Assembly: GCA_963669155.1 (NCBI GenBank)
Contig: OZ022589.1
Coordinates: 18,071,932-18,135,931, forward strand
Origin: Arbacia lixula
Lineage: Eukaryota; Echinodermata; Echinoidea; Arbacioida; Arbaciidae
Direction of reading: 5' to 3'
DNA length: 64,000 nucleotides
The position numbers and the translations under genes are program-made. A model generated the notes under the pieces. That model did no database searches, had not been told where the DNA came from, and was given only the letters and a program-made list of their open reading frames with translations. Positions 35,871 to 63,094 of the stretch are shown piece by piece. The first letter of the stretch is position 1; each line of letters starts with the position of its first letter.

Positions 35871-36010
35871 TGCCACGCGAACGCCTTGAATGCATACATG
35901 GTGTACGCGCGTGACGCGCGGTATTTGAGCGGACTATAACACTAGGCTGAACTGAAATACGACGTGAACTGCCTGTACCATACCCCATTTCGGTGATACC
36001 TAGGTCCTAA
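35871..36010 (+). promoter_or_regulatory. Possible CpG-rich promoter region
   Basis: It contains ACGCGCGTGACGCGCGG and has more CpG than its surroundings. It lies just upstream of a start codon that abuts a consensus splice donor (ATG|GTGAGT at 36011). No clear TATA box at a fixed distance. Position and composition only. Confidence 0.25.
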
Positions 36011-37248
36011 ATGGTGAGTGATTCGACACCATCATCATTTTATAGTTAAGCTATAGGCCTAAGTTACCTTTTAATCTTTTACCTACTCTCAAAGTGTCAT
36101 CTAAGTTCATGTTCTTTGACTTCGTTTTAGGCGGTGGCTGCATGCTGCTCTCGCAGTAAGCCTAGTCGTAGCCCGACCAGACCCGGTGCGCAGCAGCACG
36201 GCGTTGCCGTGCGCAGCGACAGCTGTGGGCATTACTAAGCCTAGCCCTATGGCTATAGGCCTGTGGTATTCTGAAAATTGTCTTAACTTTTCTATCAATT
36301 ATCTTTTATCTCAGTAAGATAATAGCTCGCTAAGATTATCTTAAATCGGTATTCTGAAAATTGTCTTATCTTTCTAAGGACCGCCTTTATAATATTTCTG
36401 GCACTGCCATTTTATTGCCTTTAACCAGTCATATAAATGTTTTATTTGAGTAGATCAACAAATACTATAGTCTATACTCTATAGAAACGTAGTTATGTGA
36501 AAATAATGGCGCATTATTGACAATGGTCAATATCCGTAGATCTATATGAACCTTGTGCCTCTTGTGCTAAGTAATGGCCGTGCGCTTTCATGTGCTTGGA
36601 ATACATGTGGTGGTTCTTCTTGTCATGGCATCTTTGAAAATGATCATCATTTCAAATTGGATCATAAATGACTTGAAAATAAGGGAATCCTTAAATACAA
36701 TAACTGTAGAATGTCTCCTCTCCTTGCCCGATTCAGCTTGGAATAACCCCGTTGAGCAAGGAAAATCACATTAGACATCGAGATACAATAGCCCCCTAAC
36801 TCTTGTAAGTTTTGTCTTTGTTTCCAAGGAAGATAAAAAATCAATTGAATCAATTTCTTATAGGCCTAAATGTGCTATTGAGTATTATGTAGTGATAGGT
36901 GAATAACTTATAATGCTTTCTTAATTATTTGCTATAAAATTGGTATTTTCACAAAAATAGAACCCCCACTTTTCTCATAGGTAATTAATGTACCCATTAA
37001 TATTTTGCCACTTGTCATTTTATAATTAGACTCTACATGAATTTTGGTGCATTAAGCTGATGGTTCAATACTGTCTTATTTTATGTTCAGCAGATATGCC
37101 AGTGCAGCATGACCATGGAGAAGTGTTTATGCTTGAAGTGCAAGGGACTGTACATTGTCTCATGCTTCTAATAGAGGCATACAAACAAAACGTCATCTCT
37201 CAGGAAGAATTAGTACAGATGTTGGTGGATGTTTTATATCAACTTTAG
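36011..37248 (+). CDS. Possible small three-exon gene, ~61 aa, unknown function
   Basis: A phase-consistent model can be built. The start codon at 36011-36013 abuts donor GTGAGT (phase 0). Acceptor CGTTTTAG leads to exon 36131-36155 (AVAACCSR plus one base), with donor GTAAGC. Acceptor TTATGTTCAG leads to exon 37091-37250, which reads DMPVQHDHGEVFMLEVQG and then a helical stretch through NVISQEELVQMLVDVLYQL to a TAG at 37246. A consensus donor (GTAAGT) follows two bases later, so the transcript may continue into the SET exons. The last acceptor is an NAGNAG site (CAGCAG), which would add or drop one residue. I do not recognize the protein. The 25-bp exon is unusually short. The third exon looks the most real. 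Confidence 0.3.
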
Positions 37249-37595
37249 CTGTAAGTTATGTTTTGAAAACTTGTAAAATCTTTGGACATTTAAAAATATT
37301 GTATTGAAATTGTATTACAATACTTATGGTAACGTGTATTTTTGTGGGCATAAAGAAAGAGTTGTGGAATTTCTCCTTTACTGTACAACATGTAGGCCTA
37401 CAGTAAAAGAGAAATTCCCTATAATTTAAGTTTCTATCAAAAATACAAACAGTTGAAACCCACTTGTTATTCATACATGTTCGATTTAAAGGTCCCCTGT
37501 CATCAAAATGTATAGACTTATGTTGATGCAACATAATGTGTACATAGCAAAATCACTAACTGTTCAATATAAATATGTGTCCTATATTTTAAAAT

Positions 37596-37995
37596 AATTT
37601 TTCGTTATTTTTTCTCTGCACTCATAAGCCCTGCCTCCAAAATATCCAACTCAAGATCCCCCCTGTGACATCATCAAAGGTAGAAATTAGCATGATAATA
37701 AGCAGAATTTATGCACAAATTAAATACTGCAATGACTACCTCCACCTGCCCACAAGAGCATTACATGTCTTCACACAATACCATGGAACAACGTTTCATT
37801 TTGGAATAATCTTTTCAGAAATGTGCTAGCTTTGTGATTATAAGCACTTGCAGGTAGTCATTGCAATGTTTAGTTTGTGCTTAGATTATGTCTATTATCC
37901 TGCTAATTTCTACCTTTGATGATGTCACAGGGGGGAATCTTGAGTTGGAGGATATTTGGAGGCGGGGCTTATCAGTGCTGAGAAAAAAGAATAAT
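37596..37995. mobile_element. Fold-back element family H (long palindrome)
   Basis: The left arm (ATAAGCCCTGCCTCCAAAAT, CCAACTCAAGATCCCCCCTG, TGACATCATCAAAGGTAGAA, ATTAGC) is mirrored by the right arm. On the minus strand the right arm reads ATAAGCCCCGCCTCCAAATA, CCAACTCAAGATTCCCCCCT, GTGACATCATCAAAGGTAGA and AATTAGC. Arms about 150 bp at roughly 90% by eye; the inner pair CAATGACTACCTCC / GCAGGTAGTCATTG also matches. It lies upstream of the SET exons and, if transcribed with them, would fold into a long double-stranded hairpin. Confidence 0.8.
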
Positions 37996-38238
37996 ACACC
38001 CTCAGCAGCTACATGTACAAAAAACAGGCCACAATTTTGATCCGATCACCTGGTTAAAATATGTAGTTAATGAATTAGTCAATAAAAGTTCAGTGTGATT
38101 TCCTGTTTATTATTTATCTATGAAGACAGTACAATACCATGAAGACAAGGACAAAGGGAAGAGGAACAGAAGAGGAGGAGAGGCCAGCATATGAATGCTA
38201 TTTAAGAGAAAAGAAGGACCCCCCTTTTTTTTAGGCAG

Positions 38239-38257
38239 GAGCTCTTTGCAGAAAAAG
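38239..38257 (+). CDS. Candidate microexon directly upstream of the SET domain
   Basis: A T-rich tract (CCCCCTTTTTTTTAGGCAG) precedes 19 bases reading ELFAEK plus one base, followed by the donor AAAAG|GTGAGG. Its phase-1 end joins the phase of the next exon to give FAEKGRGVVA. That restores the glycine that starts the GxG motif of SET domains, as in KMT5A-type sequences (GKGRGV). An alternative acceptor (TTTAG) would add four bases in a different phase. The agreement of phase and motif is the main support; the small size is the main doubt. Confidence 0.4.
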
Positions 38258-38853
38258 GTGAGGAAATAATGAGACTTGAACTTCATGATGAGGGAGGAGT
38301 ATTGGTGTGAATTTGCATGAAGGGCATTATGCATGCAGATTTTATTTTGCTTAGTACAACGTAAGTAGGAGAGGCAAAACATTTTTTTTTTAGGATCTGT
38401 GATTTCATGAAAAATGTGGGAACTGTCCTGAAATCAATAGAATTGTCAAATGTATGCTTCAGAATAGAGTGAAATTATATGATACTGGAAAGCATGCATT
38501 CTTGTTTCATTTACATTCATGACTGCCAATATATCATATGAAAGTAGTACTACTACATGTATGCGATTTTCTCTCCTTTTTAGTTGGTTTTATATTAATG
38601 TTGTTCCAACAAGTTCATGGTAAATTGTTGATGTAAATTATTTCCACAAAAGTCACCTAAATACTAGTTTCTCATGTTGGTAACATTCATGGACATGTCC
38701 CTTATCATTGGTTTTTTTTTAACATCTGTTAATTACCACAATCCTCATCTGAGAAGAAAAAATCAACATGTGGTAAATATCTATCATGCACTATTCCTAA
38801 TTCCATAGCATTGTTACCAAAATACATGTATTCTTGTCTTTCATCTTGAATAG

Positions 38854-39007
38854 GACGTGGTGTTGTAGCAGCCACACAATTTCATAGAGGGGAATTCCTG
38901 CTGGAATACAGAGGAAAGTTGATTAGCAAGGATGAGGCAGATGAGTTGGAAGAGCTGGTGCCGTCTTGCTTCAGGTTCTTTTTTTCATTTAAGGGAAAAC
39001 GTCTTTG
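38854..39007 (+). CDS. KMT5A-like SET-domain lysine methyltransferase, exon A
   Basis: Acceptor TCTTTCATCTTGAATAG and donor CTTTG|GTAAGT bound a 154-bp exon with phases 1 in and 2 out. It reads (G)RGVVAATQFHRGEFLLEYRG, then KLISKDEADELEE, then SCFRFFFSFKGKRL. This is the N-terminal half of a SET domain: the GxG cofactor loop, the basic-hydrophobic strand and the EYRG turn. The family transfers methyl groups from S-adenosylmethionine to protein lysine. The closest family is KMT5A (SETD8/PR-Set7), including the many KMT5A-like proteins of fish and invertebrates that end soon after the SET domain. Upstream coding exons are not securely found. Substrate is unknown; nuclear histone or other lysine substrates are inference. 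Confidence 0.88.
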
Positions 39008-39502
39008 GTAAGTGGAATACATTAAAAGTTAACTGGCATTCCTTTGCTAATTATGTAAACTTAATGGTAGTTGATCAGTGCTCAGTGTTCGTGTCAATAA
39101 CTCCAATTTCAAACTTGATAACATAGCCCCATTTCCAAAAAGATTATGTTTGGAATTATATCTTTTGCAGTTATTCAGCAGATTCATTTGTGTTGCACAG
39201 CAGCAGACGCATTTCTAGTTATTACATATGTATACATGATCAAAATAAGATGAAATTGGAAATATTAAACCTCTTGTTTCAATTTCTTTGTGTACATGTA
39301 TGTTCCCAATTAACAGTTGGGCTTTTAGATTGTCACAAATGATACGCAATGTTATATTTGGAGTAAGCGAGTCTTTGGTTTCATTCAGTGGGATTCACAA
39401 AAATCAGTGTATTTTTTTTTTAAATATCGGTACAGTTTAGGAGTGGGGCAAAGAGAACGATGTATCTATTACATCATTTAATGTTGACTTTCATGTTTGT
39501 AG

Positions 39503-39722
39503 TGTTGATGCAACAGATGAACCTGACACCACATGTGAAGAAGCTGTACTTGGCAGACTAGTGAACCATGGACGTGGTCGTGGGGCCAACGCAATCATCC
39601 GTGTAGTCCCTTATGAAGAGGTGCCAAGATTGTGCATATTCGCTAAAAGAGACATTCTTATAGATGAAGAAATATTGTATGACTATGGACTTTCCAAGCT
39701 GCCTTGGATTAGCAACTCAAGG
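39503..39722 (+). CDS. KMT5A-like SET-domain lysine methyltransferase, exon B
   Basis: Acceptor TTCATGTTTGTAG and donor TCAAGG|GTAAGC bound 220 bp, phases 2 in and 0 out. Joined to exon A it reads GKRLCVDATDEPDTTCEE, then AVLGRLVNHGRGRGANAI, PRLCIFAKRDILIDEEILYD and YGLSKLPWISNSR. CVDAT, GRLVNH, the xLxxFAKRDI strand and EEILYDYG are the C-terminal SET motifs; the DYG tyrosine is the catalytic-site tyrosine of the family. Two oddities stand out. NHG replaces the usual NHS. A short acidic insert (EPDTTCEE) follows VDAT. The next exon is uncertain: joined directly to the 135-bp repeats it reads one frame, and via 41592-41707 another. Confidence 0.9.
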
Positions 39723-41252
39723 GTAAGCTGAACTTCACTGTTTTTCCATGAAATAGATGTCATTTAACCCATCTTAAATGCCCATTCCCACATTTTTGTG
39801 GGAAAATTTTCAAATCTTTATAACTTCAGACTGACAGCTTCAAAAAAATTGCACTTGGCACCATTTATAGACAGAGAAAAATCTGCTATTAATGGGAGTG
39901 TTAAAATAAGACTTTTATGCATTATTCATAGAGCTGTTATTATTCAAAGATATTTTGTTGCCTGAGAGCTAAATGTCATATTTTGCATGGGAAATTGGCA
40001 ACTAGATGTATGAATAATTCATTGATCAGATAAGATTCCAGCAATGGGAGTCAAGAATTAGGACATCATTGCTCTCCATTTGCATATCCTGTGGGCTGAC
40101 TGTAGTGCATGGCTGCAGTGAGCTGTGTGTGTGTAGAATGCACATGCAATGTGTGTGAAACTGTGCATTGAACTGTGTAGCCTGTGTGTGGAGACATGTG
40201 TACACAGAATCAAGATGGTGAAAGTTCATTATGGAAATGTACCTATAAAGGTCTTTTTTCATGTGGCAGGTAATGTTCTGTTTGTGTAACATCACTAGTT
40301 TTTACTGGTTGACATTAATTTTACAGCACAATTACTAAAATTGTGACAGAAGTATTGATTTGATTTGATTTTGAGGATAAAGCTGATACAGAACTTTGCT
40401 TGCACTGTGGCTGAACTACAGACCAGACAGCATTCATTTTTTACGGAGTATTAACGTTAGGCATGGCAAACAAGCATGTTGAAATCTGAATTTAGGCAAG
40501 CAAGGCCATTGGTAAATATGATACATGGACAAATTAATATGACTTGTGACAATTGATGCTTGTCTGAATGATTTAGTGCAGCAACTGTCTTAGCAGTAAC
40601 TGGCTAGGACCCATATGGGCCATGCCTAGCCTAAAAAAGCAAGCTCACGCTAGCATCATCATTCTTCTTGACTGTTTATAAACATGAAAAGATAAAACAA
40701 TTGCTTGTCTAACTGTAATAATCCTTGAATAAATATCCGTTGATACAATTTGTACTCATTTTATTTTACCCACTGGTCACCTATTATCAAACAAATAATG
40801 AAATATGACACACTACATAGTCGGTATCAGATCAGATTTGTGCCCACTGAATTACTTCACTTAAGATTAGAAAGTGAACATTTGTGTCCAAACTCGCGAT
40901 AATAAGTCAATTGATCTAAATCGAACAATTACTTCTTGATTTGTCTGTCAAACCTGATACAACTGAAATACTAGTAATTTGATTGTGCATCCAAAATAAT
41001 TCATGTCCATTTCTCTCACACACTCACACAGTTGCATGCAAGGGTAGTGTGATCAAACTTGTGCATATTTATACACAAGCGTCGGAATGATCGATTATGT
41101 GGGGACAGCTCATTCTTTCATGAATTTGAATAGCATGAGAATTTTATTTCAACAAATATGTAGACTCTCTAAATACACTAATTTTAATTCAGTCGAAAAT
41201 AAATTTCGACAGTTTTTTAGATTGCATTTATGCTCTTTTCTTTCTTTCACAG

Positions 41253-41303
41253 TATCTTGCAAATTATAATTCCCTCCGCAACATTTACACAGTCCCTCCA
41301 TAA
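41253..41303 (+). CDS. Candidate terminal coding exon of the SET gene
   Basis: The strong acceptor GCTCTTTTCTTTCTTTCACAG is followed in phase 0, which matches the end of SET exon B, by YLANYNSLRNIYTVPP and TAA at 41301. The protein would then end 17 codons after the SET domain, as is usual for KMT5A-like proteins. The polypyrimidine tract is the best in this intron. No poly(A) signal was established. It competes with splicing into the 135-bp exon array. Confidence 0.35.
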   Translation, partial: YLANYNSLRNIYTVPP

Positions 41304-41591
41304 GAAATGGACTATGTCCAATGTAGGTAAAATGGTTCAAAGTGTTGCCGATTGTAACATAGCACATGGTGATTATTTTTGGTCTGGAGAAGGCATTGAT
41401 GGGTTAACTGAAAGCTTATGACATCCATTTGATTTAGAAGTAGGTTTTCGTCAAGTATAATGATTCTACATAAATCAGATTCATTTTAAGGGCTGTGAAG
41501 GACTACAATCGTAAAAGCCTGTTTGAAATGACAAATATACCAAAATATATTGATATATTTGCTGAAAAGCAATCACAGGTCAGGATTTCAG

Positions 41592-41707
41592 TTGAAAATA
41601 TCAATAGTTGTTATTGATGTCATTGATTACAAGTTTAATGTTCAAGGCCTTGAAGTGGGATATTCATTTCCTGGAAGTCAAGATGAATACGGCTCTGCAA
41701 TTATTAG
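41592..41707 (+). CDS. Candidate linker exon joining SET exon B to the 135-bp exon array
   Basis: From acceptor GGATTTCAG to donor ATTAG|GTATGA, 116 bp read LKISIVVIDVIDYKFNV, QGLEVGYSFPGSQDEYG, SAII with no stop, phase 0 in and 2 out. The entry phase fits SET exon B. The exit phase puts the 135-bp blocks in the KLLDLLDLEMVD frame, giving IIRKLLDLLDLEMVD. Against it: the acceptor lacks a good pyrimidine tract and the length is short enough to be open by chance. An overlapping open segment in another frame (41491-41617, ...KDYNRKSLFEMTNIPKYID...) is a rival. Confidence 0.25.
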
Positions 41708-41769
41708 GTATGAATTGCCTATTTAGATAAACTTTAAGTGAGTTTAGTTACAAATTGTAAATATTTCAG

Positions 41770-41904
41770 GAAGCTCCTGGATCTCCTGGACTTGGAGATG
41801 GTGGACTGCTCTGCCCACAGGGACCTGAGGCCACTGGAGATGCTAGAAGACAGGCGGTCACTGCTCTCAAGGAAACAGAACTTCATGGACCATCAGGAGA
41901 CTTT
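41770..41904 (+). CDS. Tandem exon copy 1 (45 codons)
   Basis: In the phase-2 frame it reads KLLDLLDLEMVDCSAHRD, LRPLEMLEDRRSLLSRKQNF, MDHQET. Leucine-, acid- and base-rich, probably helical; no family recognized. This copy has Met in RPLEMLED. The phase-0 frame is also open (EAPGSPGLGDGG...). The acceptor lies in sequence that differs upstream (GTTTAGTTACAAATTG), so this is the founding edge of the array. The 135-bp length is a multiple of three. Confidence 0.5.
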
Positions 41905-43149
41905 GTAAGTGACCATTTCAGATTTCCTTTGTACTTTTGCAATTTATTAAAAGTCATTGTTTAACATTGTTGTGGATCAATTTAGAAACTTGTAGAATTG
42001 AGGTGGCTATTTTCCGGACCCATGATTATGAAAAAAAAAAACCCATGCATTCAGGAAGTCCCGGAAGCCTGGTGTTCTGAGCTTGCTGCATAAGATATGA
42101 ATGTAATGAAAACATGGCTCCAGACTCATTATAAAGGACTGGAAAGTCTGCTGCCTTGAAATTTCTGGCGTTTTCACATCCTCTATTACAGAAGAATGGC
42201 AGTAGATGTATGAAAACTTGATTTTGTAAGCCCTTGTAACTGTGTTTTAATTTGTGCTTGTCATTTCTTTTTATAGTGGGTTAATAAAGCGGACTCCCCA
42301 ATTTGTATTTACAGTACCATCACTTAAAAGGGAAGAATAAAACTGTGTGTTTTAATTTGTGCTTGTCATTTCTTTTTATAGTGGGTTAATAAAGCGGACT
42401 CCCCAATTTGTATTCACAGTACCATCACTTAAAAGGGAAGAATATAACTGTGTGTTTTAATTGGTTCTTGTGATTTCTTCTTGTAGTGGGTTAAAAAGTA
42501 GGACTCCCCAATTTGTATTTACAGTACCCTCACTTGAAAGGGAAGAATATAATTGTGTTTTAATTGGTTCTTGTCATTTCTTTTTATAGTGGGTTAATAA
42601 GTAGGACTCCCCAATTTGTATTTACAGTACCCTCACTTGAAAGGGAAGAATATAATTGTGTTTTAATTGGTTCTTGTCATTTCTTTTTATAGTGGGTTAA
42701 TAAGTAGGACTCCCCAATTTGTATAATTTACAGTACCCTTACTTAAAAGGGAAGAATATAACTGTGTGTTTTAATTGGTTTATGTCATTTCTTTTTATAG
42801 TGGGTTAATAAGTTGGACTCCCCAATTTGTATTTACAGTACCATCACTTAAAAGGGGAGAATGTAACTGTGTGTTTTAATTGGTTCTTGTCATTTCGTCT
42901 GATAGTGGGTTAATAAAGCGGACTCCCCAATTTGTATTCACAGTACCCTCACTTAAAAGGGAAGAATATAACTGTGTTTTAATTGGTTCTTGTGATTTTT
43001 TCTTATAGTGGGTTAATAAAGCGGACTGCCCAATTTGTATTTACCGTACCCTCACTTAAAAGGGGAGAATATGACTGTGTGTTTTAATTGGCTCTTTCAT
43101 TTCTTCTGATAGTGGTTTAAAGGTAGGACTCAAATTGTAAATATTTCAG

Positions 43150-43284
43150 GAACCTCCTGGATCTCCTGGACTTGGAGATGGTGGACTGCTCTGCCCACAG
43201 GGACCTGAGGCCACTGGAGAAGCTAGAAGACAGGCGGTCACTGCTCTCAAGGAAACAGAACTTCATGGACCATCAGGAGACTTT
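43150..43284 (+). CDS. Tandem exon copy 2
   Basis: As copy 1, but starts GAACCT (Asn-Leu instead of Lys-Leu) and has Lys in RPLEKLED. Same acceptor and donor; open in both candidate frames. Confidence 0.5.
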
Positions 43285-43905
43285 GTAAGTGACCATTTCA
43301 GATTTCCTTTGCACTCTTGCAATTAATTAAAAGTCATTTTTCAACATTGTGGTGGATCAATTTAGAAACTTGTAGAATTGAGGTGGCTATTTGCCGGACC
43401 CATGATTATGAAAAAAAAAAAAAAACCCATGCATTCAGGAAGTCCCGGAAGCCTGGTGTTCTGAGCTTGCTGCATAAGATATGAATGTAATGAAAACATG
43501 GCTCCAGACTCATTATAAAGGACTGGAAAGTCTGCTGCCTTGAAATTTCTGGCGTTTTCACATCCTCTATTACAGAAGAATGGCAGTAGATGTATGAAAA
43601 CTTGATTTTGTAAGCCCTTGTAACTGTGTTTTAATTTGTGCTTGTCATTTCTTTTTATAGTGGCTTAATAAAGCAGACTCCCCAATTTGTATTTACAGTA
43701 CCGTCACTTAAAAGGAAAGAATATAAGTGTGTGTTTTAATTGGTTTTTGTCATTTCTTTTAATAGTGGGTTAATAAAGCGGACTCCCCAATTTGTTTTTA
43801 CAGTACCCTCACTTGAAAGGGAAGAATATAATTGTGTTTTAATTGGTTCTTGTCATTTCTTCTGATAGTGGGTTAAAAGTAGGACTCAAATTGTAAATAT
43901 TTCAG

Positions 43906-44040
43906 GAAGCTCCTGGATCTCCTGGACTTGGAGATGGTGGACTGCTCTGCTCACAGGGACCTGAGGCCACTGGAGAAGCTAGAAGACAGGCGGTCACTGC
44001 TCTCAAGGAAGCAGAACTTCATGGACCATCAGGAGACTTT
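43906..44040 (+). CDS. Tandem exon copy 3
   Basis: Lys-Leu start, RPLEKLED. Two changes are silent in the KLLDLL frame (GCT for GCC in CSAH; AAG for AAA in SRKQ) but would be Ser for Pro and Ala for Thr in the other frame. Confidence 0.5.
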
Positions 44041-44974
44041 GTAAGTGACCATTTCAGATTTTCTTTGCACTTTTGCAATTAATTAAAAGTAATTTTTTAA
44101 CATTGTGGTGGATCAATTTAGAAACTTGTAGAATTGAGGTGGCTATTTGCCGGACCCATGATTATGAAAAAAAAAAAACCCATGCATTCAGGAAGTCCCG
44201 GAAGCCTGGTGTTCTGAGCTTGCTGCATAAGATATGAATGTAATGAAAACATGGCTCCAGACTCATTATAAAGGACTGGAAAGTCTGCTGCCTTGAAATT
44301 TCTGGCGTTTTCACATCCTCTATTACAGAAGAATGGCAGTAGATGTATGAAAACTTGATTTTGTAAGCCCTTGTAACTGTGTTTTAATTTGTGCGTGTCA
44401 TTTCTTTTTATAGTGGGTTAATAAAGCGGACTCCCCAATTTGTATTTACAGTACCCTCACTTGAAAGGGAAGAATATAATTGTGTTTTAATTGGTTCTTG
44501 TCATTTCTTTTTATAGTGGGTTAATAAGTAGGACTCCCCAATTTGTATTTACAGTACCCTCACTTGAAAGGGAAGAATATAATTGTGTTTTAATTGGTTC
44601 TTGTCATTTCTTTTTATAGTGGGTTAATAAGTAGGACTCCCCAATTTGTATAATTTACAGTACCCTTACTTAAAAGGGAAGAATATAACTGTGTGTTTTA
44701 ATTGGTTTATGTCATTTCTTTTTATAGTGGGTTAATAAGTTGGACTCCCCAATTTGTATTTACAGTACCATCACTTAAAAGGGGAGAATGTAACTGTGTG
44801 TTTTAATTGGTTCTTGTCATTTCGTCTGATAGTGGGTTAATAAGTCAGACACCCCAATTTGTATTTACGGTACCCTCACTTGAAAGGGAAGAATATAACT
44901 GTGTGTTTTAATTGTTTCTTGTCATTTCTTCTGATAGTGGGTTAAAAGTAAGACTCAAATTGTAAATATTTCAG

Positions 44975-45109
44975 GAAGCTCCTGGATCTCCTGGACTTGG
45001 AGATGGTGGACTGCTCTGCCCACAGGGACCTGAGGCCACTGGAGAAGCTAGAAGACAGGCGGTCACTGCTCTCAAGGAAACAGAACTTCATGGACCATCA
45101 GGAGACTTT
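44975..45109 (+). CDS. Tandem exon copy 4
   Basis: Majority sequence: KLLDLLDLEMVDCSAHRD, RPLEKLED, LLSRKQNFMDHQET. Same splice signals. Identical by eye to copy 7. Confidence 0.5.
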
Positions 45110-46670
45110 GTAAGTGACCATTTCAGATTTCCTTTGCACTCTTGCAATTAATTAAAAGTCATTTTTTAACATTGTGGTGGATCAATTTAGAAACTTGTAG
45201 AATTGAGGTGGCTATTTGCCGGACCCATGATTATGAAAAAAAAAAAACCCATGCATTCAGGAAGTCCCGGAAGCCTGGTGTTCTGAGCTTGCTGCATAAG
45301 ATATGAATGTAATGAAAACATGGCTCCAGACTCATTATAAAGGACTGGAAAGTCTGCTGCCTTGAAATTTCTGGCGTTTTCACATCCTCTATTACAGAAG
45401 AATGGCAGTAGATGTATGAAAACTTGATTTTGTAAGCCCTTGTAACTGTGTTTTAATTTGTGCTTGTCATTTCTTTTTATAGTGGGTTAATAAAGCGGAC
45501 TTCTCAATTTGTATTTACAGTACCCTAACTTAAAAGGGAAGAATATATAACTGTGTGTTCAAATTTGTCCTTGTCATTTCTTTTTATAGTGGGTTAATAA
45601 GTAGGACTCCCCAATTTGTATTTACAGTACAGTACTCTCACTTAAAAGGGAAGAATACAACTGTGTGTTTTAATTGGTTTTTGTCACTTCTTCTTGTAGT
45701 GGGTTAAAAAGTAGGACTCCCCAATTTGTATTTACAGTACCCTCACTTAAAAGGGAAGAATATAACTGTGTTTTAATTTGTGCTTGTCATTTCTTTTTAT
45801 AGTGGGCTAATAAAGCGGACTCCCCAATTCGTATTCACAGTACCCTTACTTAAAAGGGAAGAATATAACCGTGTGTTTTAATTGGTTCTTGTGATTTCTT
45901 CTTGTAGTGGGTTAAAAAGTAGGACTCCCCAATTTGTATTTACAGTACCCTCACTTGAAAGGGAAGAATATAATTGTGTTTTAATTTTTTTTTCATTCCT
46001 TTTTATAGTGGGTTAATAAGTCAGACACCCCAATTTGTATTTACGGTACCCTCACTTGAAAGGGAAGAATATAACTGTGTGTTTTAATTGGTTCTTGTGA
46101 TTTCTTCTTGTAGTGGGTTAAAAAGTAGGACTCCCCAATTGGTATTTACAGTACCCTCACTTGAAAGGGAAGAATATAATTGTGTTTTAATTTTTTTTTT
46201 CATTCCTTTTTATAGTGGGTTAATAAGTCAGACACCCCAATTTGTATTTACGGTACCCTCACTTGAAAGGGAAGAATATAACTGTGTGTTTTAATTGGTT
46301 CTTGTCATTTCTTTTTATAGTAGGTTAATAAGTAGGACTCCCCAATTTGTATTTACAGTACCATCACTTAAAACGGAAGAATATAAGTGTGTGTTTTAAT
46401 TGGTTTTTGTAATTTCTTTTAATAGTGGGTTAATAAAGCGGACTCCCCAATTTGTATTTACAGTACCATCACTTAAAAGGGAAGAATATAATTGTGTGTT
46501 TTAATTGGTTTTTGTCATTTCTTTTAATAGTGGGTTAATAAAGCGGACTCCCCAATTTGTTTTTACAGTACCCTCACTTGAAAGGGAAGAATATAATTGT
46601 GTTTTAACTGGTTCTTGTCATTTCTTCTGATAGTGGGTTAAAAGTAGGACTCAAATTGTAAATATTTCAG

Positions 46671-46805
46671 GAAGCTCCTGGATCTCCTGGACTTGGAGAT
46701 GGTGGACTGCTCTGCTCACAGGGACCTGAGGCCACTGGAGAAGCTAGAAGACAGGCGGTCACTGCTCTCAAGGAAACAGAACTTCATGGACCATCAGGAG
46801 ACTTT
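46671..46805 (+). CDS. Tandem exon copy 5
   Basis: Majority peptide; carries the GCT (silent in KLLDLL frame) variant in CSAH. Preceded by the longest minisatellite interval in the array. Confidence 0.5.
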
Positions 46806-47526
46806 GTAAGTGACCATTTCAGATTTCCTTTGCACTTTTGCAATTAATTAAAAGTCATTTTTTAACATTGTGGTGGATCAATTTAGAAACTTGTAGAATT
46901 GAGGTGGCTATTTTCCGGACCCATGATTATGAAAAAAAAAACCCATGCATTCAGGAAGTCCCGGAAGCCTGGTGTTCTGAGCTTGCTGCATAAGATATGA
47001 ATGTAATGAAAACATGGCTCCAGACTCATTATAAAGGACTGGAAAGTCTGCTGCCTTGAAATTTCTGGCGTTTTCACATCCTCTATTACAGAAGAATGGC
47101 AGTAGATGTATGAAAACTTGATTTGGTAAGCCCTTGTAACTGTGTTTTAATTTGTGCTTGTCATTTCTTTTTATAGTGGGTTAATAAGTAGGACTCCCCA
47201 ATTTGTATTTACAGTACCCTCACTTAAAAGGGAAGAATATAACTGTGTGTTTTAATTTGTGCGTGTCATTTCTTTTTATAGTGGGTTAATAAAGCGGACT
47301 CCCCAATTTGTATTCACAGTACCATCACTTAAAAGGGAACAATATAAGTGTGTGTTTTAATTGGTTCTTGTCATTTCTTTTAATAGTGGGTTAATAAAGC
47401 GGGCTCCCCAATTTGTATTTACAGTACCCTCACTTAAAAGGGAAGAATATAATTGTGTTTTAATTGGTTCTTGTCATTTCTTCTGATAGTGGGTTAAAAG
47501 TAGGACTCAAATTGTAAATATTTCAG

Positions 47527-47661
47527 GAAGCTCCTGGATCTCCTGGACTTGGAGATGGTGGACTGCTCTGCTCACAGGGACCTGAGGCCACTGGAGAAGC
47601 TAGAAGACAGGCGATCACTGCTCTCAAGGAAACAGAACTTCATGGACAATCAGGAGACTTT
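47527..47661 (+). CDS. Tandem exon copy 6
   Basis: Carries GCT (CSAH, silent), CGA for CGG (DRRS, silent) and AAT for CAT, making MDNQET. The last is the only replacement unique to this copy. Confidence 0.5.
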
Positions 47662-48702
47662 GTAAGTGACCATTTCAGATTTCCTTTGCACTTTTGCAAT
47701 TAATTAAAAGTCATTTTTTAACATTGTGGTGGATCAATTTAGAAACTTGTAGAATTGAGGTGGCTATTTGCCGGACCCATGATTATGAAAAAAAAAAAAA
47801 CCCATGCATTCAGGAAGTCCCGGAAGCCTGGTGTTCTGAGCTTGCTGCATAAGATATGAATGTAATGAAAACATGGCTCCAGACTCATTATAAAGGACTG
47901 GAAAGTCTGCTGCCTTGAAATTTCTGGCGTTTTCACATCCTCTATTACAGAAGAATGGCAGTAGATGTATGAAAACTTGATTTTGTAAGCCCTTGTAACT
48001 GTGTTTTAATTTGTGCTTGTCATTTCTTTTAATAGTGGGTTAATAAAGCGGACTCCCCAATTTGTATCTACAGTACCCTCACTTAAAAGGGAAGAATATA
48101 TAACTGTGTGTTCAAATTTGTCCTTGTCATTTCTTTTTATAGTGGGTTAATAAGTAGGACTCCCAAATTTGTATTTACAGTACCCTCACTTAAAAGGGAA
48201 TAATACAAATGTGTGTTTTAATTGGTTCTTGTCATTTCTTTTTATAGTGGGTTAAAAAGTAGGACTCCCCAATTTGTATTTACAGTACCCTCACTTAAAA
48301 GGGAAGAATATAACTGTGTGTTTTAATATGTGCTTGTCATTTCTTTTTATAGTGGGCTAATAATGCGGACTCCCCAATTTGTATTCACAGTACCCTCACT
48401 TAAAAGGGAAGAATATAACTGTGTGTTTTGATTGGTTCTTGTGATTTCTTCTTGTAGTGGGTTAAAAAGTAGGACTCCCCAATTTGTATTTACAGTACCC
48501 TCACTTGAAAGGGAAGAATATAATTGTGTTTTAATTCTTTTTTGTCATTTCTTTTTATAGTGGGTTAATAAGTCAGACACCCCAATTTGTATTTACGGTA
48601 CCCTCACTTGAAAGGGAAGAATATAACTGTGTGTTTTAATTGTTTCTTGTCATTTCTTCTGATAGTGGGTTAAAAGTAAGACTCAAATTGTAAATATTTC
48701 AG

Positions 48703-48837
48703 GAAGCTCCTGGATCTCCTGGACTTGGAGATGGTGGACTGCTCTGCCCACAGGGACCTGAGGCCACTGGAGAAGCTAGAAGACAGGCGGTCACTGCTCT
48801 CAAGGAAACAGAACTTCATGGACCATCAGGAGACTTT
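48703..48837 (+). CDS. Tandem exon copy 7
   Basis: Majority sequence, matching copy 4. Its downstream minisatellite also matches that of copy 4, including a rare CAGTACAGTACTCTCAC insertion, so the two cassettes share a recent duplication. Confidence 0.5.
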
Positions 48838-50086
48838 GTAAGTGACCATTTCAGATTTCCTTTGCACTTTTGCAATTAATTAAAAGTCATTTTTTAACAT
48901 TGTGGTGGATCAATTTAGAAACTTGTAGAATTGAGGTGGCTATTTGCCGGACCCATGATTATGAAAAAAAAAAAAACCCATGCATTCAGGAAGTCCCGGA
49001 AGCCTAGTGTTCTGAGCTTGCTGCATAAGATATGAATGTAATGAAAACATGGCTCCAGACTCATTATAAAGGACTGGAAAGTCTGCTGCCTTGAAATTTC
49101 TGGCGTTTTCACATCCTCTATTACAGAAGAATGGCAGTAGATGTATGAAAACTTGATTTTGTAAGCCCTTGTAACTGTGTTTTAATTTGTGCTTGTCATT
49201 TCTTTTTATAGTGGGTTAATAAAGCGGACTTCTCAATTTGTATTTACAGTACCCTAACTTAAAAGGGAAGAATATATAACTGTGTGTTCAAATTTGTCCT
49301 TGTCATTTCTTTTTATAGTGGGTTAATAAGTAGGACTCCCCAATTTGTATTTACAGTACAGTACTCTCACTTAAAAGGGAAGAATACAACTGTGTGTTTT
49401 AATTGGTTTTTGTCACTTCTTCTTATAGTGGGTTAAAAAGTAGGACTCCCCAATTTGTATTTACAGTACCCTCACTTAAAAGGGAAGAATATAACTGTGT
49501 TTTAATTTGTGCTTGTCATTTCTTTTTATAGGGGGCTAATAAAGCGGACTCCCCAATTCGTATTCACAGTACCCTTACTTAAAAGGGAAGAATATAACTG
49601 TGTGTTTTAATTGGTTCTTGTGATTTCTTCTTGTAGTGGGTTAAAAAGTAGGACTCCCCAATTTGTATTTACAGTACCCTCACTTGAAAGGGAAGAATAT
49701 AATTGTGTTTTAATTGGTTTTCATTCCTTTTTATCGTGGGTTAATAAGTCAGACACCCCAATTTGTATTTACGGTACCCTCACTTGAAAGGGAAGAATAT
49801 AACTGTGTGTTTTAATTGGTTCTTGTGATTTCTTCTTGTAGTGGGTTAAAAAGTAGGACTCCCCAATTTGTATTTACAGTACCCTCACTTGAAAGGGAAG
49901 AATATAATTGTGTTTTAATTGGTTCTTGTCATTTCTTCTTATAGTGGGTTAATAAGTAGGACTCCCCAATTTGTATTTACAGTACCATCACTTAAAAGGG
50001 GAGAATGTAACTGTGTGTTTTAATTGGTTCTTGTCATTTCTTCTGATAGTGGGTTAAAAGTAGGACTCAAATTGTAAATATTTCAG

Positions 50087-50221
50087 GAACCTCCTGGATC
50101 TCCTGGACTTGGAGGTGGTGGACTGCTCTGCCCACAGGGACCTGAGGCCACTGGAGAAGCTAGAAGACAGGCGGTCACTGCTCTCAAGGAAGCAGAACTT
50201 CATGGACCATCAGGAGACTTT
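50087..50221 (+). CDS. Tandem exon copy 8
   Basis: Asn-Leu start as in copy 2, Val for Met in LEVVDC, and the silent AAG in SRKQ. Same donor. Confidence 0.5.
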
Positions 50222-51256
50222 GTAAGTGACCATTTCAGATTTTTTTTGCACTTTTGCAATTAATTAAAAGTCATTGTTTAACATTGTGGTGGATCAATTT
50301 AGAAACTTGTAGAATTGAGGTGGCTATTTGCAGGACCCATGATTATGAAAAAAAAAAACATGCATTCATGAAGTCCCGGAAGCCTGGTGTTCTGAGCTTG
50401 CTGCATAAGATATGAATGTAATGAAAACATGGCTCCAGACTCATTATAAAGGACTGGAAAGTCTGCTGCCTTGAAATTTCTGGCGTTTTCACATCCTCTA
50501 TTACAGAAGAATGGCAGTAGATGTATGAAAACTTGATTTTGTAAGCCCTTGTAACTGTGTTTTAATTTGTGCTTGTCATTTCTTTTTATAGTGGGTTAAT
50601 AAAGCGGACTCCCCAATTTGTATTTAGAGTAGCCTCACTTAAAAGGGATGAATATAACTGTGTGTTTTAATTGGTTTTTGTCATTTCTTTTTATAGTGGG
50701 TTGATAAGTAGGACTCCCCAATTTGTATTTACAGTACCATCACTTAAAAGGGAAGAATATAACTGTGTGTTTTAATTTGTGCTTGTCATTTCTTTTTATA
50801 GTGGGTTAATAAGTAGGACTCCCCAATTTGTATTTACAGTACCATCACTTAAAAGGGAAGAATATAACTGTGTGTTTTAATTTGTGCTTGTCATTTCTTT
50901 TTATAGTGGGTTAATAAGTAGGACTCCCCAATTTGTATTTACAGTACCATCACTTAAAAGGGAAGAATATAAGTGTGTGTTTTAATTGGTTTTTGTCATT
51001 CCTTGTAATAGTGGGTTAATAAAGCGGACTACCCAATTTGTATTTACAGTATCCTCACTTAAAAGGGAAGAATATAACTGTGTGTTTCAATTTGTGCTTG
51101 TCATTTCTTTTTATAGTGGGTTAATAAGTCAGACTCCCCAATTTGTTTTTACAGTACCCTCACTTGAAAGGGAAGAATATAATTGTGTTTTAATTGGTTC
51201 TTGTCATTTCTTCTGATAGTGGGTTAAAAGTAGGACTCAAATTGTAAATATTTCAG

Positions 51257-51391
51257 GAAGCTCCTGGATCTCCTGGACTTGGAGATGGTGGACTGCTCTG
51301 CCCACAGGGACCTGAGGCCACTGGAGATGCTAGAAGACAGGCGTTCACTGCTCTCAAGGAAACAGAACTTCATGGACCATCAGGAGACTTT
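51257..51391 (+). CDS. Tandem exon copy 9 (last before the interruption)
   Basis: Has Met in RPLEMLED like copy 1 and CGT for CGG (silent) in DRRS. About 1.1 kb of conserved intron and minisatellite follow before the array is interrupted near 52517. Confidence 0.5.
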
Positions 51392-52517
51392 GTAAGTGAC
51401 CATTTTAGATTTCCTTTGTACTTTTGCAATTAATTGAAAGTCATTGTCTAACATTATGGTGGATCAATTTAGAAACTTGTAGAATCGAGGTGGCTATTTG
51501 CCGGACCCATGATTATGAAAAAAAAAACCCATGCATTCAGGAAGTCCCGGAAGCCTAGTGTTCTGAGCTTGCTGCATAAGATATGAATGTAATGAAAACA
51601 TGGCTCCAGACTCCTTATAAAGGACTGGAAAGTCTGCTGCCTTGAAATTTCTGGCGTTTTCACATCCTCTATTACAGAAGAATGGCAGTAGATGTATGAA
51701 AACTTGATTTTGTAAGCCCTTGTAACTGTGTTTTAATTTGTGCTTGTCATTTCTTTTTATAGTGGGTTAATAAAGCGGACTCCCCAATTTGTATTTACAG
51801 TACCTGTGTGTTCAAATTTGTCCTTGTCATTTCTTTTTATAGTGGGTTAATAAGTAGGAATCCCCAATTTGTATTTACAGTACCCTCACTTAAAAGGGAA
51901 GAATACAACTGTGTGTTTTAATTGGTTTTTGTCATTTCTTTTTATAGTGGGTTAAAAAGTAGGACTCCCCAATTTGTATTTAGAGTAACCTTACTTAAAA
52001 GGGAAGAATATAACTGTGTGTTTTAATTTGTGCTTGTCATTTCTTTTTATAGTGGGTTAAGAAAGCGGACTCCCCAATTTGTACTTACAGTACCCTCAAT
52101 TAAAAGGGAAGAATATAACTGTGTGTTTTATATGGTTTTTACCATTTCTTTTTATAGTGGGTTAACAAGTAGGACTCCCCAATTTGTATTTACAGTACCC
52201 TTACTTTAAAGGGAAGAATATAACTGTGTGTTTTAATTGGTTCTTGTAATTTCTTCTTATTGTGGGTTAATAAGTAGGACTCCCCAATTTGTATTTGCAG
52301 TACCATCACTTAAAAGGGAAGAATATAACTGTGTGTTTTAATTTGTGCAAGTAATTTCGTTTCATAGTGGGTTAATAAGTAGGACTCATCAAGTTGTATT
52401 TACAGTAACATCACTTAAAAGGGAAGAATATTACTGTGTGTTTTAATTTGTGCTAGTAATTTCTTTTTATAGTGGGTTAATAAGTAGGACTCCCCAATTA
52501 ATTAGAGTATTTACAGT

Positions 52518-53087
52518 TCTTTGGGCAATTCCATGATTTGTTACGTAACACTTTATGGTCATTTTCAATCTAAGGTTGGCTTCTACAAGAAGATGCTTTG
52601 ATATTATTTTTCTATTTTTGTAGTGTGAATACCTTTAGACAAAACCTACTTCACACCATCAAATAGAATCATGAGACACATTTCAGTAAGGGATAACAAG
52701 AACTGTCATTTCGGTTAGTTACGTTACACTAAGAGGACATGAAAAAAATGATAAGATTTTGTCCCAAGAGTTTCTTCAAACTAGGTATTACTGAAACAAA
52801 CTGTGACATTCGTGTTATTGCGGGTGTCTTGGCAAGTTATTTAATATGAACCATTTTAGGAATAGCTTTCAAGTTTTGTGCAGCAACAACAAAAACATGG
52901 TTAGTTATGTTACACTTTGTCCATGCATTAAAAAATTACATTTGCTCAAATTTTTCTCACACCTAGGGTGCATATGGGGCTTCATTTATTTGAAACAGAA
53001 GTGCAGAATAGAAATACTGTTCAATTTAGCACTGAGTCTAACTATTTTCTCTTCTAAATAACATTTTATGCCTCTAAAGGACTAATT
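52518..53087. mobile_element. Left flank of the block interrupting the exon array
   Basis: The minisatellite breaks off after TATTTACAGT. The flank then contains GGTTAGTTACGTTACA at 52713 and GGTTAGTTATGTTACA at 52899, a 16-bp motif that otherwise occurs only at 63095-63315. No coding segment. I infer that this and 61243-63596 are the two parts of one inserted element. Confidence 0.5.
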
Positions 53088-54775
53088 AGGTGGTCTGTCG
53101 CCAACGACAGATCACCTCTTAATTTCGTTAGAATTTTCTTTCTTTATTATTTATTATTTATTTATTTTTATTCCAAATTTTTGTGACATGGATATCTCAA
53201 CAATGCATGAGCCATATTTCATGAAATGTTCATCATGTATGGACATATATGTGAACATGTTACAGCAACATTTTCAAGGTCATGACGTCATCGTGACGTC
53301 ATCTACGAGCAGTTTAATGAAAACCTATTACCTCATGTAGCTCTAGAACTGGTCATCTCTGTGTAATGAAATTTGACATGCATATAATTAATGAGTAGCT
53401 AATTAATTTCATTGAAAAAAAACGCGCGCGTACGCGTACGTTAGTGCAAAAACGCGCGCGCAAAATTTTAAAATGCTCCAAATCAACTCAAAATTGTTTT
53501 GCATATGTTTCAGGCCATTTCTAGCATTTCAAAAATTTCCGCGCGTGCGCGCGCGTTCGCGCGTTTTTTCGTGCGTAACGCGAACAAAACGTCAAAATTC
53601 TGTTTTTTTACTGGATTCATGTTACTGACACTACATACAACACATCCTGTCATTTTGAGCCATTTCCATGCAATAACAAGGTCGTGCGGGTGCGTCAAAG
53701 TTCAAAGTCTGCGCGTGCGTCAATACGTTTTTGTGTGCAAATATTGCAAAAAACATGACTACCTTCAATCGGCCATAGCTCTTCAGAATGGCCGGTGACC
53801 CCCAATTTTTTTTCAATATTCTGAAAGAGTGGGAAATGTAGATGTGATTTAATGTTCGATTTACCTTTTAAATTTATGTTGATGTCATCATATTGCCATA
53901 TGAATCGAAAAAATGATTTTTCATGTATGACGTCATGAACTTTTTTACCCGCTTTTGTGTATCTCAGTAATTCATGGTCAATTTTCTCCCAAATTTCAGT
54001 ATGTTGTAGCTGAGACCTCGCTCCATAGTAGGAGTTGCCTTCATTTTTCATTTTGATGACGTCTTCACGGTGTAAATTTCATTATACGCATGAATGTCAA
54101 AATCGCACTTCCGTGTTATGTCAATGGAAGTGGTATTTATGAAATGACATGACGAGCTTCTAGGAGATGTATCTCACTAATATGTCGAGCTTTCACTCTG
54201 AAATTTCAGTATGTTGTAGCTGAGTCTACGAGCTTTCCGGAACGTTGTCTCCATTTTTTAATCAGATGTCGGGATCATGGTGAAATTTCAGCTTGAATAT
54301 CGATTTCTTAATCATTCTAGCCCCTGCTGGGCATTACGTGTTAAGTAAATGGGAAGATTTGTGGCTCAGTAGGTAAGGCGCCGTTTTAAGATCTCGAGGC
54401 CCCCGGTTCGATTCCTGGCGTGGGTAGGGTCAACTTTTGCATTCCTTTTGCAATGTTTATTTTGCCATCTTCTTCTGTTCTATGCCTCACTTTGTCATTC
54501 TCTTTGAGATTTTCTTTCCAATTCTTTTTTCTCTCACCCCATTCTCTTACATGACTATTAATCACGTTAGCATAAACATGTAACCATTTAGGAAAGTCTC
54601 TGAAATGTTAGTATAATAGGTGCCCTATGAGCTTTCTTGAGCGCTGTCTCACATTGCTTATGGATAGTTGGTGTCACGAATGAAGGTCTATAGTTCACCG
54701 TGCATTTTCCAGCCCATGTCTGTGCATGAATTTGCCAATGCAGACCACCTGATACTTGTCCACAAGTATGTCTCG
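53088..54775. repeat. 1.6-kb tandem repeat, unit 1 (with 5' leader)
   Basis: The leader (53088-53160) starts with a hairpin, AGGTGGTCTGTCG / CGACAGATCACCT, found elsewhere only in the solo copy at 16151. The shared unit starts at about 53161 (TTTATTTTTATTCC). In order it has two TGACGTCA palindromes 11 bp apart (53283, 53294), alternating CG tracts (53421-53460, 53540-53564), a third TGACGTCA near 53929 and a tRNA-like segment (54362-54415). It ends with the hairpin ATACTTGTCCACAAGTAT. Open frames of 95-131 codons occur on both strands but have no recognized domain. Confidence 0.92.
54362..54434 (+). other. tRNA-like Pol III promoter segment, unit 1
   Basis: A box TGGCTCAGTAGG at 54362, B box GGTTCGATTCC at 54405, spacing 43 bp as in tRNAs, followed by TTTT at 54431. 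The middle (TAAGGCGCCGTTTTAAG) resembles leucine tRNA. The T stem has a mismatch and the acceptor stem does not pair, so this is a tRNA-derived element rather than a tRNA gene. Confidence 0.7.
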
Positions 54776-56391
54776 TTTATTTTTATTCCAAATTTTTGTG
54801 ACATGGATATCTCAACAATGCATAAGCCATATTTCATGAAATGTTCATCATGTATGGACATATATGTGAACATGTTACAGCAACATTTTCAAGGTCATGA
54901 CGTCATCGTGACGTCATCTACGAGCAGTTTAATGAAAAACTATTACCTCATGTAGCTCTAGAACTGGTCATCTCTGTGTAATGAAATTTGACATGCATAT
55001 AATTAATGAGTAGCTAATTAATTTCATTGAAAAAAAACACGCGCGTACGCGTACGTTAGTGCAAAAACGCGCGCGCAAAATTTTAAAATGCTCCAAATCA
55101 ACTCAAAATTGTTTTGCATATGTTTCAGGCCATTTCTAGCATTTCAAACATTTCCGCGCGTGCGCGCGCGTTCGCGCGTTTTTTCGTGCGTAACGCGAAC
55201 AAAACGTCAAAATTCTGTTTTTTTACTGGATTCATGTTACTGACACTACATACAACACATCCTGTCATTTTGAGCCATTTCCATGCAATAACAAGGTCGT
55301 GCGGGTGCGTCAAAGTTCAAAGTCTGCGCGTGCGTCAATACGTTTTTGTGTGCAAATATTGCAAAAAACATGACTACCTTCAATCGGCCATAGCTCTTCA
55401 GAATGGCCGGTGACCCCCAATTTTTTTTCAATATTCTGAAAGAGTGGGAAATGTAGATGTGATTTAATGTTCGATTTACCTTTTAAATTTATGTTGATGT
55501 CATCATATTGCCATATGAATCGAAAAAATGATTTTTCATGTATGACGTCATGAACTTTTTTACCCGCTTTTGTGTATCTCAGTAATTCATGGTCAATTTT
55601 CTCCCAAATTTCAGTATGTTGTAGCTGAGACCTCGCTCCATAGTAGAAGTTGCCTTCATTTTTCATTTTGATGACGTCTTCACGGTGTAAATTTCATTAT
55701 ACGCATGAATGTCAAAATCGCACTTCCGTGTTATGTCAATGGAAGTGGTATTTATGAAATGACATGACGAGCTTCTAGGAGATGTATCTCACTAATATGT
55801 CAAGCTTTCACTCTGAAATTTCAGTATGTTGTAGCTGAGTCTACGAGCTTTCCGGAACGTTGTCTCCATTTTTTAATCAGATGTCGGGATCATGGTGAAA
55901 TTTCAGCTTGAATATCGATTTCTTAATCATTCTAGCCCCTGCTGGGCATTACGTGTTAAGTGAATGGGAAGATTTGTGGCTCAATAGGTAAGGCGCCGTT
56001 TTAAGATCTCGAGGCCCCCGGTTCGATTCCTGGCGTGGGTAGGGTCAACTTTTTGCATTCCTTTTGCAATGTTTATTTTGCCATCTTCTTCTGTTCTATG
56101 CCTCACTTTGTCATTCTCTTTGAGATTTTCTTTCCAATTCTTTTTTCTCTCACCCCATTCTCTTACATGACTATTAATCACGTTAGCATAAACATGTTAC
56201 CATTTAGGAAATTCTCTGAAATTTTAGTATAATAGGTGCCCTATGAGCTTTCTTGAGCGCTGTCTCACATTGCTTATGGATAGTTGGTGTCACGAATGAA
56301 GGTCTATAGTTCACCGTGCATTTTCCAGCCCATGTCTGTGCATGAATTTGCCAATGCAGACCACCTGATACTTGTCCACAAGTATGTCTCG
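54776..56391. repeat. 1.6-kb tandem repeat, unit 2
   Basis: 1616 bp, nearly identical to unit 1 but without the leader. The paired TGACGTCA sites lie near 54898, the tRNA-like A box at 55977 and the B box at 56020. Confidence 0.93.
55977..56050 (+). other. tRNA-like Pol III promoter segment, unit 2
   Basis: A box TGGCTCAATAGG at 55977, B box GGTTCGATTCC at 56020, T5 run shortly downstream. Same structure as unit 1. Confidence 0.7.
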
Positions 56392-58016
56392 TTTATTTTT
56401 ATTCCAAATTTTTGTGACATGGATATCTCAACAATGCATAGGCCATATTTCATGAAATGTTCATCATGTATGGACATATATGTGAACATGTTACAGCAAC
56501 ATTTTCAAGGTCATGACGTCATCGTGACGTCATCTACGAGCAGTTTAATGAAAAACTATTACCTCATGTAGCTCTAGAACTGGTCATCTCTGTGTAATGA
56601 AATTTGACATGCATATAATTAATGAGTAGCTAATTAATTTCATTGAAAAAAACGCGCGCGTACGCGTACGTTAGTGCAAAAACGCGCGCGCAAAATTTTA
56701 AAATGCTCCAAATCAACTCAAAATTGTTTTGCATATGTTTCAGGCCATTTCTAGCATTTCAAAAATTTCCGCGCGTGCGCGCGCGTTCGCGCGCGTTCGC
56801 GCGTTTTTTCGTGCGTAACGCGAACAAAACGTCAAAATTCTGTTTTTTTACTGGATTCATGTTACTGACACTACATACAACACATCCTGTCATTTTGAGC
56901 CATTTCCATGCAATAACAAGGTCGTGCGGGTGCGTCAAAGTTCAAAGTCTGCGCGTGCGTCAATACGTTTTTGTGTGCAAATATTGCAAAAAACATGACT
57001 ACCTTCAATCGGCCATAGCTCTTCAGAATGGCCGGTGACCCCCAATTTTTTTTCAATATTCTGAAAGAGTGGGAAATGTAGATGTGATTTAATGTTCGAT
57101 TTACCTTTTAAATTTATGTTGATGTCATCATATTGCCATATGAATCGAAAAAATGATTTTTCATGTATGACGTCATGAACTTTTTTACCCGCTTTTGTGT
57201 ATCTCAGTAATTCATGGTCAATTTTCTCCCAAATTTCAGTATGTTGTAGCTGAGACCTCGCTCCATAGTAGAAGTTGCCTTCATTTTTCATTTTGATGAC
57301 GTCTTCACGGTGTAAATTTCATTATACGCATGAATGTCAAAATCGCACTTCCGTGTTATGTCAATGGAAGTGGTATTTATGAAATGACATGACGAGCTTC
57401 TAGGAGATGTATCTCACTAATATGTCAAGCTTTCACTCTGAAATTTCAGTATGTTGTAGCTGAGTCTACGAGCTTTCCGGAACGTTGTCTCCATTTTTTA
57501 ATCAGATGTCGGGATCATGGTGAAATTTCAGCTTGAATATCGATTTCTTAATCATTCTAGCCCCTGCTGGGCATTACGTGTTAAGTGAATGGGAAGATTT
57601 GTGGCTCAATAGGTAAGGCGCCGTTTTAAGATCTCGAGGCCCCCGGTTCGATTCCTGGCGTGGGTAGGGTCAACTTTTTGCATTCCTTTTGCAATGTTTA
57701 TTTTGCCATCTTCTTCTGTTCTATGCCTCACTTTGTCATTCTCTTTGAGATTTTCTTTCCAATTCTTTTTTCTCTCACCCCATTCTCTTACATGACTATT
57801 AATCACGTTAGCATAAACATGTTACCATTTAGGAAATTCTCTGAAATTTTAGTATAATAGGTGCCCTATGAGCTTTCTTGAGCGCTGTCTCACATTGCTT
57901 ATGGATAGTTGGTGTCACGAATGAAGGTCTATAGTTCACCGTGCATTTTCCAGCCCATGTCTGTGCATGAATTTGCCAATGCAGACCACCTGATACTTGT
58001 CCACAAGTATGTCTCG
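56392..58016. repeat. 1.6-kb tandem repeat, unit 3
   Basis: 1625 bp. It differs from units 1-2 mainly by an extra CGCGTTCGCG copy in the second CG tract (near 56780-56810), which lengthens the plus-strand open frame there. Confidence 0.93.
57602..57675 (+). other. tRNA-like Pol III promoter segment, unit 3
   Basis: A box at 57602, B box at 57645, T5 run downstream; identical to unit 2. Confidence 0.7.
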
Positions 58017-61242: not shown

Positions 61243-61975
61243 TCAGCCTTTGGTTTGCAGGGTAATGTTGTCGGATAGCAAGATCTGAAAACATGCATGT
61301 AGTCCTGTATTGTGTGCAATTGATACCATGTGGTGCATCACATTCATGCAATATGCATACGTTCAGGACATTTAATAATTTCAAAGGAACAAAAACATTT
61401 CAATTGCCATGATATTTTAATTAGATATCTTTTGATGTAGAATACCAATAATGTTGATAAAACTTGTACAATGGGTTCTGTCTGGTCAGTATAGTAGTAA
61501 AATAGTTAAGGTGACATTATACTTTTTTTATTACACAAAATGACATAAATTGCACTGAGCAACTTCAAAAACATTGTGAATTCTTCAGTTTACATTTGAA
61601 ACACATCTTGTGCTCATATTTTGATAAAAGTGTTATTAAAGTGGTGGTTAAAATGACCGTCTCTTCATTACTATGCCTAAACTCGCCACAAACATATTTG
61701 CTCATACTGCCAAAGTAAAGTACATAACAATATCAAACAGTGATGACCTACACATGTGCATCATAATACTAGATAAACATATTTAAACAAAAGGGTTAAA
61801 TGAAGGTTGTCTTTCCCTTTTTGGTAATATGAATACAAAACAAACAACAACATCTTTGCACACACTAAGTAGATGTCTTTGTGATTACAAATTAAATGAA
61901 TGCCAGGTAACAGTGGTTCATTGTTCAAGCTATCTCACAGTCATTTGTTGGAGTTGCTTATGTCCGAACAGAAAA
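61243..61975. other. No gene seen; right-hand flank of the 1.6-kb array
   Basis: AT-rich DNA between the end of unit 5 and the minus-strand pseudogene. Probably part of the element that carries the pseudogene. Confidence 0.4.
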
Positions 61976-63007: not shown

Positions 63008-63094
63008 TTGCCTTCTGCTGCCTTCTTTTGTCTATATATATATCCTAATATGCTGCCCAATTGCCACTGCATAGTGCTAAATCAGTGGCAAAGC

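Follow-up and report, generated by a model that had tools for sequence, protein, structure and literature searches.

Arrays of 135-bp exon-like blocks between SET and recombinase exons of a large mobile element in the sea urchin Arbacia lixula

Tandemly duplicated cassette exons that code for protein repeats are known as a general class, and fungi harbor giant transposons, the Starships, which are large elements with a tyrosine recombinase, the DUF3435 captain, as their first gene. In animals, the CryptonA group of Crypton DNA transposons, with a sea urchin among its hosts, carries a tyrosine recombinase as one large open reading frame (ORF), according to the main text of Kojima & Jurka 2011 (PMC3212892), where the term 'SET domain' has 0 occurrences. 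Here we analyze a stretch of 64,000 nucleotides of the 607-Mb Arbacia lixula genome (C14:18071932-18135931, the window), which contains an array of 135-bp exon-like blocks lying between two SET exons and, past the window end, a recombinase exon. A bindin match in this genome (E 2e-65) is in keeping with an echinoid. Blocks, SET exons and recombinase exon are parts of one mobile element, whose three copies with both ends determined measure 28.0, 33.6 and 37.9 kb, and it is fairly probable, judging from sequence and exon phases, that the blocks are cassette exons, multiplied together with their introns, which lengthen the linker between the SET and recombinase domains of a transposon gene.

The original prediction, made from the letters of the window, described nine near-identical tandem blocks on the same strand as a SET gene, and this description stands: all nine are exactly 135 bp long, a length divisible by three, show 0-4 differences with respect to the first copy, and share the splice-like borders AAATATTTCAG before and GTAAGTGACC after the block (AG/GT). 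Plus-strand frames 0 and 1 are open; stops interrupt plus frame 2 and each of the three minus frames. Block-to-block spacing is 756-1696 bp, taken up by a conserved stretch of about 336 bp and by 105-bp tandem repeats; an Rfam search of the window gave no match. Genome-wide there are at least 93 copies (93 of 93 candidates scored), every one at ten places and alike far beyond chance. The tallies per place, from the same scan, are 8 at C1, C3, C9, C10 and C186, 13 at C11, 10 at C14, 7 at C18, 14 at C19 and 9 at C197, so that the anticipated copy-number variation is found as a range of 7 to 14, and the borders are intact in all 36 copies with full flanks (38 copies found in four places).

The idea of a single host gene with a block array had to be abandoned, since the whole set of blocks, SET exons and recombinase exon recurs at ten places. 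Copies C1, C3 and C14 have exact common ends with unrelated flanks: rightwards from the left end C14 is about 99% identical to C1 and C3 (99.5% over the leftmost 6219 bp), whereas leftwards the sequence is unrelated. On the right, the element stops at window coordinate 73413 (C14:18145344) with GTACGAGTA, followed by (TG)n, and the lengths by coordinates are 27,978 bp (C1), 33,644 bp (C3) and 37,863 bp (C14). Among readable ends, which leave out C9, C186, C197, the right ends of C11 and C19 and the left end of C18, (TG)n precedes the element at C1, C3, C10, C11 and C19, not C14 (5 of 6), and TG repeats follow it at C1, C3, C10 and C14 (4 of 4); TG stands at both ends of the element wherever these could be read. 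Close to each end there is a subterminal 16-bp inverted repeat, ACAGTTATTTGAGGAG. At the extreme ends no inverted repetition beyond chance is seen (first 32 nt, 312 of 2000 shuffles); over 100 nt, including the 16-bp repeat, it was equalled in 11 of 2000 shuffles.

The resemblance to CryptonA, as portrayed in the main text of PMC3212892, lies in the animal host and in a tyrosine recombinase encoded as a single large ORF with no intact reverse transcriptase seen. An ORF scan of the C1 copy, which included no search for a decayed reverse transcriptase, found a recombinase without reverse transcriptase, the Crypton hallmark, and no stop-to-stop ORF above 163 amino acids (aa) besides the 887-aa recombinase exon. 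Unlike the elements described there, the present one is 28-38 kb long, joins SET to the recombinase, has an intron of 16-28 kb, zinc-finger-like motifs and exon arrays, and shows (TG)n at most ends. As a group, Cryptons lack inverted repeats at their termini and have at most short direct ones; in the present element TG stands at both ends where these are readable, and the 16-bp inverted repeat is subterminal. With the fungal Starships it shares its large size and tyrosine recombinase; it differs from them in the animal host, in the joined SET domain, in a recombinase exon without Pfam match and in having no cargo ORF above 163 aa in the C1 copy, the SET-recombinase gene being the only large gene.

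Concerning the SET part, the gene proposed upstream of the blocks was confirmed, the joined exon translation matching Pfam SET with an E-value of 7.9e-18 (65.3 bits, against a gathering score of 22.4). Exon 1 is found at all ten block places and exon 2 is full at eight and partial at C9 and C186, always on the strand of the blocks. The best relative in the PDB is 4ldg, followed by KMT5A/SETD8 chains (E about 1e-19), and GRG, NH and YDYG, which we take to be SET motifs, are retained. The domain resembles the histone H4K20 methyltransferase KMT5A/SETD8, with predicted methyltransferase activity, and differs from it in residing on a transposon, where it is linked to a recombinase.

The 887-aa exon accompanies blocks and SET exons at the ten places, being open at seven and near-identical in those seven. 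Its structure model points to a tyrosine-recombinase fold, with matches led by XerD, XerH, integrases, Cre and lambda Int; an earlier model on 601 residues was poor, without useful match. The motifs NRRRPGE, LRKHIAT and LGHN...YY presumably correspond to the recombinase boxes (R-H-R-Y), and HxxR carries Thr for the first His in all four relatives. Pfam gave no family above cut-off for this exon, the Crypton domain DUF3504 included, and none at E 10 within the HMMER filters; a tblastn comparison with 18 pattern matches from IMG/VR yielded no viral relative. At C18:13598537-13604373, several recombinase pieces (54-97% identical) run antisense to the SET exons of that place and form a rearranged copy.

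The blocks sit in an intron of 16-28 kb between these domains, and the phases of its borders constrain how they can be read. SET exon 2 ends on a full codon, as does the recombinase exon begin on one; hence, with blocks of 135 bp, any block number keeps the frame, and only block frame 0 (EAPGSPGLGDGG...) can link the two. Of the uses that the original prediction allowed for, among them mutually exclusive choice, we favour exons chained in frame from its donor at 39722, given the splicing we infer; the frame of its peptide, KLLDLLDLEMVD..., does not fit the phase-0 neighbours, its second candidate donor at 41707 is not needed, and the presumed target exon of block splicing is located outside the window. 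Frame 0 is open in 91 of the 93 copies, with stops in copies at C9 and C186, which are the elements with an incomplete recombinase exon.

Under the cassette-exon interpretation, a DNA-transposon-like element of about 28-38 kb would carry one large gene whose product runs from a KMT5A-like SET methyltransferase domain through a linker and zinc-finger-like motifs to a tyrosine recombinase, the putative mover of the element. The 7-14 blocks would descend from a single 135-bp exon of phase 0-0 that was amplified along with flanking intron and 105-bp repeats, most likely through unequal recombination between the repeats. With each spliced-in block the linker would gain 45 residues (EAPGSPGLGDGGLLCPQGPEATGEARRQAVTALKETELHGPSGDF), which are probably disordered, and linker length would be set by block copy number and exon skipping. 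As in the tandem cassette exon class, the blocks are phase-symmetric, divisible by three, intact at their borders and multiplied in tandem with introns; unlike that class, they belong to the gene of a transposon and separate two enzyme domains, and their copy number varies among insertions within one genome.

Diverged relatives show how the linker behaves elsewhere. The recombinase has relatives at 29 loci, a large family in which many members keep long open frames, of up to 1512 aa; some are joined to SET, others have no SET match nearby. There are relatives in which a single open frame spans SET exon 2 and the recombinase. In the C21 relative, phase 0 holds at the end of the last SET exon as well as at the start of the recombinase exon, and between them one further exon is present twice, with 837 and 252 nt. 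Each copy is a multiple of three in length, follows TTACAG and closes with ATG before GTAAGC, with phase 0 at either border; they are GC-rich (0.59 and 0.61 against 0.30-0.38 in the flanks) and code for 15-residue repeats (HTSGDREEPEPSGGL). Among their variants, 7 of 19 changes are synonymous in this phase-0 frame and 3 of 19 in the second frame that is open, and the surrounding intron carries 38-bp repeats. The block peptides gave no tblastn match to this relative, hence the C21 exon and the blocks have no visible common descent. At C2 a linker of about 55 residues is repeated within one exon, at C7 one of about 50 residues (judged by eye), and at C4 about three 36-residue repeats stand at the start of the recombinase exon; a repeated linker is thus present in all four relatives read.

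Several observations weigh against the cassette-exon interpretation. The sequence matches of the recombinase are weak, and the matches of its structure model have E-values above 0.001 at moderate model confidence (predicted local distance difference test score, pLDDT, 67). The arrays in the C4 intron are long and without clear exons. For variability we used 33 non-terminal block copies from C14, C1, C3 and C11, leaving out three array-end copies, whose inclusion raises flank diversity because their downstream sequence differs. Variable sites are equally frequent in the block (10/135) and in the downstream stretch (26/323; p = 1.0), so that no purifying selection is seen relative to that stretch, in a comparison of little power because the repeats within an array are probably homogenised. 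Frame 0 shows no excess of synonymous variants (3/17 and 3/13). Finally, both outer exons being in phase 0, the frame also survives skipping of all blocks.

Of these points, the equal substitution density, the C4 arrays and the skippable frame suit the alternative that the blocks are passengers, one exon-derived piece amplified with the intronic 105-bp satellite repeats and normally skipped, SET being spliced directly to the recombinase. We regard this as unlikely, though worth serious attention, since the borders are kept in every full-flank copy, the GC rise is restricted to the block itself, and the alignment has 0 gap columns in the block against 14 in the downstream stretch, where a poly-A run visibly varies; the independent doubling of a phase-0 exon at C21 also speaks against it.

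Reading the blocks in frame 1, as an exon captured from another gene or part of a separate short gene using the donor at 41707, appears highly improbable. This frame is open in 92 of 93 copies, has a high third-position GC (0.77) and somewhat more synonymous variants (7/17 and 4/13), yet it requires a phase-2 neighbour where both gene exons are phase 0, and its sole stop is found at C10, whose recombinase exon is open. In addition, its peptide has no relative at E 1 or less in the genome outside the ten places, and the block peptide has neither a PDB relative nor a Pfam family above cut-off. That segmental duplication, an assembly artefact, genome duplication or haplotype redundancy produced the ten places is scarcely credible: C9 and C186 share defects, and haplotypes may thus be included among the ten, but the exact ends in unrelated flanks of the three copies with both ends determined, the (TG)n at most ends read, the large family of diverged relatives and the differing block numbers oppose it.

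Beyond the cassette exons themselves lies a wider proposal, possible and distinctly tentative: a methyltransferase-recombinase fusion may move a large animal transposon family, its linker being an expandable exon array of 7-14 blocks per insertion through which recombination and alternative splicing would tune the distance from the chromatin-modifying to the DNA-joining domain, with two diverged lineages using unlike exons. If right, the picture drawn here would combine three features not yet reported together in the literature reached. A transposon would supply a histone-type methyltransferase of its own; a tyrosine-recombinase element of an animal would reach tens of kb, with (TG)n at most of its ends; and the insertions of a single element would carry exon arrays of unequal number. 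No element of this kind was found in titles or abstract beginnings, most subscription journals and bioRxiv preprints being outside reach. The seven near-identical open recombinase copies make insertion polymorphism and expression directly testable, and a caution follows for annotation: exon-like arrays beside a domain gene can be part of a mobile element.

Table 1. Coordinates of the features discussed, in window positions unless a place is given.
Feature	Position	Strand	Remarks
Mobile element, window part	35551..64000	+	homology to C1 and C3 begins exactly at 35551
SET exon 1 (GRGVVAATQFHRGEF...)	38854..39010	+	phase 1 start, phase 2 end; 96-98% identical at 10 places
SET exon 2 (VDATDEPD...EILYDYGLSKLPWISNSR)	39503..39722	+	ends phase 0 at donor GTAAGC
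Exon-like block 1	41770..41904	+	block scan of window
Exon-like block 2	43150..43284	+	same block scan of window
Exon-like block 3	43906..44040	+	same block scan of window
Exon-like block 4	44975..45109	+	same block scan of window
Exon-like block 5	46671..46805	+	same block scan of window
Exon-like block 6	47527..47661	+	same block scan of window
Exon-like block 7	48703..48837	+	same block scan of window
Exon-like block 8	50087..50221	+	same block scan of window
Exon-like block 9	51257..51391	+	same block scan of window
105-bp tandem repeats	42237..52499	+	broken up by blocks and their ~336-bp downstream stretch
Same 105-bp repeats	63597..64000	+	run on past window end up to tenth block
Tenth block	64804-64938 (C14:18136735)	+	just beyond window end
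Zinc-finger-like/recombinase exon	66156-68780		beyond window end
C21 relative	C21:6033001-6053000		recombinase 41% identical, 740-aa open frame
C4 relative	C4:29783001-29798500		SET-recombinase intron filled by 261-283-bp arrays

Two further components lie inside the element. The length of the C14 copy includes window positions 53161-61243, which are a separate insertion without counterpart in C1 and C3, made of five tandem units of about 1617 bp that are 77-80% similar in part to window 16345-16851; four of the five units carry a 118-aa minus-strand ORF. In the intron of element copies, at 62387-63100 on the minus strand, there are gene pieces, SENYMCVSQDEVQSAHW and HGKGPVDSIGGSVKR, which from their motifs we take to be DDE-like and which have no Pfam match. 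This gene was considered as the mover and rejected, being dispersed on its own with 136 genome matches, mostly outside the ten places. Most of its copies contain stops, some of which may lie between exons, the query having fused two pieces.
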